From: Candidatus Methanodesulfokora washburnensis
GTDB taxonomy: Archaea; Korarchaeota; Korarchaeia; Korarchaeales; Korarchaeaceae
Length of the DNA: 64,000 nucleotides
Direction of reading: 5' to 3'
Assembly (NCBI RefSeq): GCF_003947435.1
Contig: NZ_RCOS01000113.1
Coordinates: 1 to 64,000 of the forward strand
Positions 38,386 through 40,118 of this stretch are shown here, in pieces. The notes below the pieces were generated by a model, which did not search any database, had not been told where the DNA came from, and saw only the letters and a list, made by a program, of their open reading frames with translations. The position numbers were made by a program, and so were the translations under genes. How positions within the stretch are numbered: the first letter of the stretch is position 1; the number at the start of each line of letters is the position of its first letter.

Positions 38386-39077
38386 TCTCCGTCATAATAC
38401 CAACGAAAAATGAAGAGAAATACATAAAAAGGTGTCTAATTTCTCTGAACAGACAGAGAGAGTATATAGGGGAGATAATAGTAGCAGATGGGGGAAGCAC
38501 AGATAAAACAGTGGAAATAGCTAGAAGATACGCAGATATAGTTTTAGTAGATCCTAGGCTTAATAGTCCGGGAAAGGGAAGAAATGCTGGGGCAAATGTG
38601 GCAAAAGGAGATATACTGGCTTTTGTCGATGCTGATACCTTAGTTAACGATGAATGGGGAAAAGCAATAACCGAGGCATTCAACCAGAAAGGGGTTTTGA
38701 TGGCCTCTGGTCCTGTTTATCCCTATGACTCAAGCATTTTATTGAAGATCGCCTATATCTTCTCGTACGATTTTCTTGTGAGGGTCACAAGGTTCCTCAG
38801 GATAACTCACTTTCTTGGATTAAATGTGGCTTACAGAAAGGACTTCTTCATTAAATTAGGTGGTTTTCCAAATACAAAACTATCTGAGGACATACTGCTC
38901 TCAATGAAGGCTAATAAATATGGAAAATCCGTCTTTAGCAGGAAGATGTCTGTTCTAAGCTCAGCCAGAAGATTGAGAAAACAGGGGATCGGATGGATTT
39001 TGTTATATCTAATATTTAATGAATTGAAAGTTATTTTTAAAGGAAAACCCCTTGAGTACTATCCTGAAGTAAGATAA
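38382..39077 (+). CDS. family 2 glycosyltransferase
   Basis: GT-A fold transferase of 231 residues starting MISVIIPTKNEEKYIKRCL at an ATG that overlaps the DUF92 stop (ATGA). Nucleotide-sugar binding is shown by VADGGSTDKTVEIA and the metal motif FVDADT; the later LSEDILLSMK segment supplies the acceptor-side acid. Two hydrophobic stretches near the C-terminus may touch the membrane. With DUF92 it may act on a polyprenyl or archaeal lipid carrier, which is inference from coupling only. Confidence 0.85.
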   Translation: MISVIIPTKNEEKYIKRCLISLNRQREYIGEIIVADGGSTDKTVEIARRYADIVLVDPRLNSPGKGRNAGANVAKGDILAFVDADTLVNDEWGKAITEAFNQKGVLMASGPVYPYDSSILLKIAYIFSYDFLVRVTRFLRITHFLGLNVAYRKDFFIKLGGFPNTKLSEDILLSMKANKYGKSVFSRKMSVLSSARRLRKQGIGWILLYLIFNELKVIFKGKPLEYYPEVR

Positions 39078-39140
39078 AAATAATAATATTTTACTTCGAT
39101 TGTTCGCACAGGTATTGCACTAGAAAGTAACCCTCTTAAA

Positions 39141-39202
39141 CAAACCGAAAACTTTATATACCGATTGATGCCTATTTTAGTTGATAAAAAGTTTTCGGTT
39201 TG
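39141..39202 (+). promoter_or_regulatory. TFB core promoter inside a 15-bp perfect inverted repeat
   Basis: The left arm CAAACCGAAAACTTT (39141-39155) and right arm AAAGTTTTCGGTTTG (39188-39202) are exact reverse complements, 32 bases apart. The left arm carries the BRE-like purine run and the first bases of the TATA box CTTTATATACC (39152-39162). The expected transcript start is near 39182, so the right arm lies in the first bases of the mRNA, ahead of the GAGGGG ribosome site. A regulator binding both arms would cover the promoter. Confidence 0.75.
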
Positions 39203-39215
39203 TGAGGGGTTAGTC

Positions 39216-40118
39216 TTGGAAAAAGAGGAGGAACTTAGATGCCCCAGATGTGGGAGTACTAATATAATAGAAGATCCTGATGCAGGTGAGCTAGTTTGCG
39301 CTGATTGTGGTCTTATAATATCTTCTGGCGTTCCCACAGAGAGAAAAGAATGGAGAGCTTTTGATTCAGATGAATACATAAAGAGAGCCCATACTGGGGC
39401 TCCGATATCTCCTACAAGACCAAGTTTTGGTCTGGATACAGGTTTTATTGGTCAGGATAGCGTGAGTAAAAAGTCCGCAAAAAGGTTTCAGAGAACAAAG
39501 AAGCATGTCAGTGACTCAAAGGAAAAGACAATAGAACCAGCCCTCATGAAGATAAAGGATGTTGCTGAGACATTGAACATACCGGAAGAGGCTGTGGAGG
39601 ATGCCGCCATGTTATATAGAATGGCTGCAGGAAAGGGATTAGTAAAGGGAAGGAGCATGGATGCGATGGTGGCTGCTGTGATCTATGCTGCATGTAGAAG
39701 GATGGAGATCCCAAGAACTCTTGAAAGCATAGCAGAATTTTTTGGACTCAAGGAGAAGGATGTGGGCAGAAGCTTCAGGTTTCTCTTCAGAAAACTAGGA
39801 ATAAAAATACCTCCTCCCAAGCCGGAGAAATTTGCTTATCATATATGCACTAAATTAGGTCTCTCAGAGGAGGTAGCAACCCAAGCAACGAGAATATTAA
39901 AGCTTGCGAGAAAGATGGGTGCTACAATGGGAAGAGAGCCCGTGGGTGTAGCCGCTGCTGCTGTTTATATGGCTTGCCAAGAGCAGGGGATTCACAGAAC
40001 ACAAAGAGAACTAGCTCAAGCAGCTGGAGTTACTGAGGTCACTGTAAGGAACAGGTATAAGGAGCTTCTTGAGAGAATAAGACCTACTCTGAAGCAACAA
40101 AGCACTGAAGGGGAATGA
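39216..40118 (+). CDS. tfb: transcription initiation factor TFB
   Basis: Archaeal TFIIB homologue that recruits RNA polymerase to TBP-bound promoters. From the chosen TTG at 39216 the protein has 300 residues: a zinc ribbon (CPRCGSTNIIEDPDAG then CADCG), the B-reader/linker (ERKEWRAFDSDEYIKR), and two cyclin repeats (about 115-205 and 210-295) with a helix-turn-helix reading the BRE. An upstream ATG at 39165 lies before the expected transcript start, so TTG with GAGGGG six bases ahead is preferred. Confidence 0.95.
   Translation: MEKEEELRCPRCGSTNIIEDPDAGELVCADCGLIISSGVPTERKEWRAFDSDEYIKRAHTGAPISPTRPSFGLDTGFIGQDSVSKKSAKRFQRTKKHVSDSKEKTIEPALMKIKDVAETLNIPEEAVEDAAMLYRMAAGKGLVKGRSMDAMVAAVIYAACRRMEIPRTLESIAEFFGLKEKDVGRSFRFLFRKLGIKIPPPKPEKFAYHICTKLGLSEEVATQATRILKLARKMGATMGREPVGVAAAAVYMACQEQGIHRTQRELAQAAGVTEVTVRNRYKELLERIRPTLKQQSTEGE

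Follow-up and report, generated by a model that had tools for sequence, protein, structure and literature searches.

The tfb locus

The window, a 64,000-nucleotide stretch of DNA from Candidatus Methanodesulfokora washburnensis, an uncultured member of the Korarchaeia, carries on its forward strand the gene for transcription initiation factor B (tfb, 39216 to 40118), recognized by the Pfam TFIIB repeats and the TFIIB zinc ribbon. TFB is a protein required by every archaeal promoter, and a search of the entire host assembly (G000) returned a single match, so that this is the sole TFB gene found there. A family 2 glycosyltransferase gene on the same strand ends upstream at 39077, and a gene for a SUI1-type translation factor lies downstream. 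The ribosome-binding site GAGGGG (39204 to 39209, forward strand) stands ahead of TTG 39216, and its counterpart in the congeneric genome G001 is GGAGG, likewise before a TTG. The TTG start, the N-terminus MEKEE and the preceding GAGGGG or GGAGG are common to all three genomes of the genus, which supports the translation start at TTG 39216 proposed in the initial annotation; the automatic start at TTG 39165, taken from the open reading frame list of the whole window, was dropped in its favor.

The host assembly is a metagenome assembly of 2.94 Mb with a completeness of 98% and a contamination of 5.5%, and its relatives all represent one family. It is two to three times as large as the two other genomes of the genus, which measure 1.0 and 1.4 Mb and are incomplete; together with the contamination, this suggests that some contigs may derive from other organisms. 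In G001, G003, G009 and G025 the tfb and tbp genes are at most about 2.5 kb apart (L153, L150 and L151 compared), and they reside on separate contigs in G000 (C105 and C127) and in the third genome of the genus, G002.

An inverted repeat composed of two facing core promoters

Ahead of tfb lies an inverted repeat consisting of two arms of 20 bp each, 39140 to 39159 and 39184 to 39203, which are 95% complementary and have 24 nt between them. It had originally been described as an exact repeat of 15 bp; the repeat stands, and its length is revised to an exact portion of 16 bp, 39140 to 39155 (ACAAACCGAAAACTTT) and 39188 to 39203 (AAAGTTTTCGGTTTGT), followed by one mismatch (39156/39187) and then three more pairs. 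With each match counted as +1 and each mismatch as -2, the tfb repeat reaches 17, the top score of the 64-kb window, where the runner-up scores 12, as does the best repeat in four shuffled windows. None of 500 shuffles of the 80 bp before tfb attained 17, and the assertion that the repeat is far beyond chance is thus upheld. Further copies of the arms with two or fewer mismatches were not found in G000, and copies with three mismatches occur at about the control level; a mobile element or dispersed repeat was rejected for this lack of other copies.

Judged by its sequence, the repeat is a pair of near-identical, complete core promoters, each with a BRE and a TATA box, arranged head-on with their TATA centers 30 bp apart. 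Promoter quality was scored with a BRE/TATA matrix of 19 positions. The matrix was trained on 166 promoters located within 536 kb of G000, tfb not being among them; the background sequence sets amounted to 536 kb for G000, 290 kb for G001 and 395 kb for G002. The left arm (39140 to 39159, forward strand), the predicted forward core promoter of tfb, contains a BRE at about 39143 to 39150 and a TATA box at about 39153 to 39160. Its forward score of 15.4 is at about the 95th percentile (14.9) of the 166 promoters, in agreement with the assignment of this arm as BRE/TATA in the initial annotation. The right arm (39184 to 39203, reverse strand) contains the reversed second BRE and TATA box and scores 14.0 on the reverse strand, so that both arms rank as core promoters above the 75th percentile (12.2; median 10.6).

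The gap between the arms (39160 to 39183, forward strand) is 24 bp long. From an archaeal core promoter, transcription is expected to begin some 23-26 bp beyond the TATA box. In Pyrococcus furiosus, 23 bp separate the last conserved A of the TATA box from the transcription start (PMC6640164). By analogy with this spacing, the forward start is predicted at about 39181 to 39183, with a pyrimidine-purine step present at 39182/39183, and the mirrored reverse start at about 39160 to 39162. With the starts so placed, each TATA box would be situated at the start of the other promoter. The reversed core promoter would accordingly cover the first transcribed bases of tfb, and the earlier placement of the right arm at the beginning of the tfb transcript holds, given this predicted start.

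Conservation within the genus

The TFB protein of G002 is 99% identical to that of G000, and 50 of 123 fourfold-degenerate sites in its gene (41%) differ. Amid this heavy synonymous divergence, an ungapped alignment of the two genomes contains an identical run of 41 bp (39171 to 39211, forward strand) that takes in half of the gap, the right arm (20 of 20 bases) and the ribosome-binding site. Within the left arm 18 bp are identical, and its outermost bases have been lost in G002. In the tfb coding sequences, aligned over 900 bp, identical runs reach 32 at most. Among 48 orthologous upstream regions that were compared, a single one has a longer run, of 46 bp, beside or within a tRNA-Pro gene, and the next run measures 30, the tfb run being counted there as 18 since the automatic start at TTG 39165 was used.

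G001, whose TFB is 80% identical, has a repeat in the same place with another spelling, AAAGTTTAAATATCGCTT / AAGTGATATTAAAACTTT, with a gap of 20 bp and a score matched by none of 500 shuffles. The TATA centers are separated by 30 bp in G000 as in G002 and by 40 bp in G001, that is, about one helical turn more. The G001 repeat spans only the 3′ part of the BRE plus the TATA box and extends several bp past the latter, and the portion of the BRE that stays unpaired in its right arm is only weakly above background (p about 0.05-0.1). Arm-to-arm matches inside one genome amount to 17/19 in G000 and 13/19 in G001, and the orthologous arms of G000 and G001 match at 12/19 positions; this higher agreement within than between genomes is expected if one binder reads both arms.

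The possibility that the mRNA end folds together with the promoter strand had also been raised. In transcripts reading through from the glycosyltransferase gene, an RNA hairpin might mask the ribosome-binding site or terminate transcription, and the segment 39130 to 39218 does fold stably in G000 (-33.7 kcal/mol, z -6.4), and GAGGG in the ribosome-binding site takes part in the pairing. However, the equivalent fold of G001 is not significant (z -1.3), so that a conserved significant RNA fold is lacking between the two genomes, and the outer pairs that involve the ribosome-binding site are missing in G002. Moreover, the left arm is upstream of the predicted start, and RNA beginning at 39183 folds in an ordinary manner (z -0.36); an Rfam search gave no match to an RNA element. 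A hairpin in read-through transcripts is very improbable, and folding of the mRNA end with the promoter strand has become less likely owing to the position of the left arm before the predicted start and the insignificant fold of the relative.

Rarity of facing sites

Facing reverse sites of this quality are scarce at other promoters. The best one at the 166 other G000 promoters scores 9.9, versus 14.0 at tfb, and in G001, for which a matrix of that genome was used, the facing site at tfb reaches 12.2 versus a best value of 10.6 among 49 promoters. In 536 kb of G000, only one facing pair besides that of tfb reaches at least 11 at each of its two sites. The repeat, the promoter quality of both of its arms, its rarity and its preservation in the genus are directly established; across the three genomes on which conservation in the genus rests, the arrangement of these promoters is genuine, conserved and unusual.

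The one other facing pair (L197:5124-5171, on G000:C110) has scores of 15.0 and 12.3 and TATA centers 18 bp apart, and it is located upstream of a leftward open reading frame, where a short contig ends; the gene content of this contig is reminiscent of mobile elements or viruses. The tbp promoter of G000 has no facing pair like that of tfb. There (G000:C127, near 58350; L155) the TATA box is flanked on both sides by BRE-like sequence, with scores of 12.0 forward and 7.8 in reverse, and the reverse site is weaker in G002 (6.5; L154/L155 comparison).

Possible roles of the reversed promoter

The upstream gene is co-oriented with tfb and the leftward sequence is unconserved between G000 and G002; the reversed promoter is consequently without an evident gene or conserved RNA of its own. 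A bidirectional promoter, in which the reversed copy would yield a leftward transcript that is either non-functional or competes with tfb for polymerase, has in its favor the strong matrix match of the reversed site (14.0) and the documented bidirectional transcription from BRE-TATA-BRE promoters in P. furiosus (PMC6640164). Yet tfb has two separate TATA boxes and none that is shared, and a leftward gene is absent. Furthermore, the left half of the gap, where the reverse start would fall, differs in G002 at 5 of 11 positions, whereas the right half (39171 to 39183), which includes the predicted forward start, is invariant. Overall, bidirectional transcription is an improbable account of the pair. 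The AT content of the region to be melted at the reverse start (0.6, compared with a mean of 0.63) was discarded as an argument against transcription because it does not discriminate.

The reading favored here, though tentatively, is that the facing reversed TBP/TFB site before tfb gives rise to negative autoregulation by TFB. The forward promoter would recruit TBP, TFB and RNA polymerase, generating tfb mRNA from about 39181 to 39183, and TBP and TFB would also fill the reversed copy over the first transcribed bases, thereby stopping or dislodging the forward polymerase. As TFB accumulates, tfb output would drop, which amounts to a negative loop operating through TFB's own normal site placed in reverse, with the feedback set solely by the spacing and the relative strength of the head-on promoters. 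That TFB and TBP, bound to the reversed core promoter over the start site, repress tfb directly and with no need for a dedicated regulator is conceivable, though doubtful enough to be put forward with reserve. Binding of TBP and TFB at the right arm, mutual exclusion and feedback are the elements of this scheme that we infer. Autoregulation through a second, inverted BRE copy had been suggested at the outset; the site itself is borne out, as a whole BRE plus TATA kept in the genus instead of a BRE alone, and autoregulation is a possibility.

A promoter in one arm of an inverted repeat automatically makes the other arm promoter-like, and the matrix score alone therefore cannot name the binder. 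Archaeal repressors often occupy the BRE/TATA region and the start site. The main rival to self-limitation by TFB, already named at the outset, is a separate regulator bound to both arms, a dimer or tetramer with one unit on the BRE/TATA and the other on the start, which would repress tfb jointly or through a short loop. Such a regulator would fit the 17/19 match between the arms of G000, a degree of agreement seen in at most 0.1% of promoter pairs, and also the inclusion of ACA(A) upstream of the BRE in the exact match of that genome. Against it, the arms are 16 to 20 bp long, about the length of a BRE plus TATA, and are without a clear internal palindrome; their sequence diverges strongly between G000 and G001, and G002 no longer has the left arm's outermost bases. 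The lack of further arm copies in G000 argues against the regulon of a separate regulator, although a regulator with a single target would need none. Taken as a whole, a separate regulator is rather unlikely. As to the binder, we lean towards TBP/TFB in view of the missing copies and the divergence of the arms between G000 and G001, while the exact match past the BRE in G000 and past the TATA box in G001 leans away from these factors.

Relation to known archaeal promoters

Operators of archaeal repressors that lie over the BRE/TATA or the start are likewise symmetric and overlap the core promoter and the start. The arms at tfb differ from these in being core promoters themselves, so that TBP and TFB may bind them, and neither a regulator gene nor a regulon was found for the tfb repeat. 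Bidirectional promoters have been described in bacteria and archaea (Warman et al. 2021, as cited in PMC12825309). In P. furiosus they have a shared TATA box and starts about 50 bp apart, their origin is seen in the symmetry of this box, and the antisense transcript is considered to have no function (PMC6640164). Like the tfb pair, these BRE-TATA-BRE promoters carry core signals on both strands, and TFB could be placed on them in two orientations. They consist, however, of one TATA box with a BRE on both sides, a definition that tfb does not fit with its two TATA boxes at 30 or 40 bp, and the predicted starts at tfb are about 20 bp apart as opposed to about 50 bp.

Auto-repression by site occlusion or roadblock is the subject of a review (PMC10310618), and there, as proposed for tfb, a protein bound at or after the start halts the polymerase. 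At tfb, by contrast, the role of obstacle would fall to the general initiation factor. Autoregulation of TFB by way of a reversed core promoter was not described in the literature searched, a weak negative since few subscription papers were covered, and control of the levels of general initiation factors in archaea appears from the same literature to be little studied. The tfb pair may extend the known overlapping and bidirectional archaeal promoters, its autoregulatory use being a proposal. Head-on core promoters at tfb would be a simple design whereby a factor gauges itself, and if this is true, archaeal bidirectional promoters would move from presumed noise to possible regulation.

Other korarchaeal tfb promoters

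Other korarchaeal genera (beyond the genus of the host, g1) have tfb without the long repeat, which makes the repeat a genus-level trait and no general property of tfb; the repeat is conserved upstream of tfb within the genus, and the counter-case named at the outset, relatives that have the gene and lack the repeat, does occur outside it. Among 79 tfb genes from other archaeal records, three have repeats at p ≤0.03 where about 2.4 would be expected, and there is no excess. This absence outside the genus, and the small number of genomes that exist, would suit an origin by chance or by a recent local duplication without function. Such an origin is nonetheless extremely improbable, as none of 500 shuffles matched the repeat in each of the three genomes and the 41-bp run is invariant amid the synonymous divergence between G000 and G002. 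A look-alike in G025, a member of another family (ACCGAAAAGCTTA / TAAGTTTTTTGGT), was matched by 80 of 500 shuffles and was rejected as not significant.

Other arrangements are encountered at korarchaeal tfb genes. The tfb promoter of G009 and one relative (L016:1391-1416, with the same element in L017) is a near-palindromic BRE-TATA-BRE, CGAAAGATTTATATATAATACTTTCG, and represents the bidirectional type with a shared TATA box, unlike the head-on pair of the window. In genus g4 (L007, L008, L010 and L011, at about 1435 to 1470), a block, TTCGGCAATTTACTAAAGGGGTGGTG, is kept between the TATA box and the tfb start, and may be a conserved element of the leader or of the start site.
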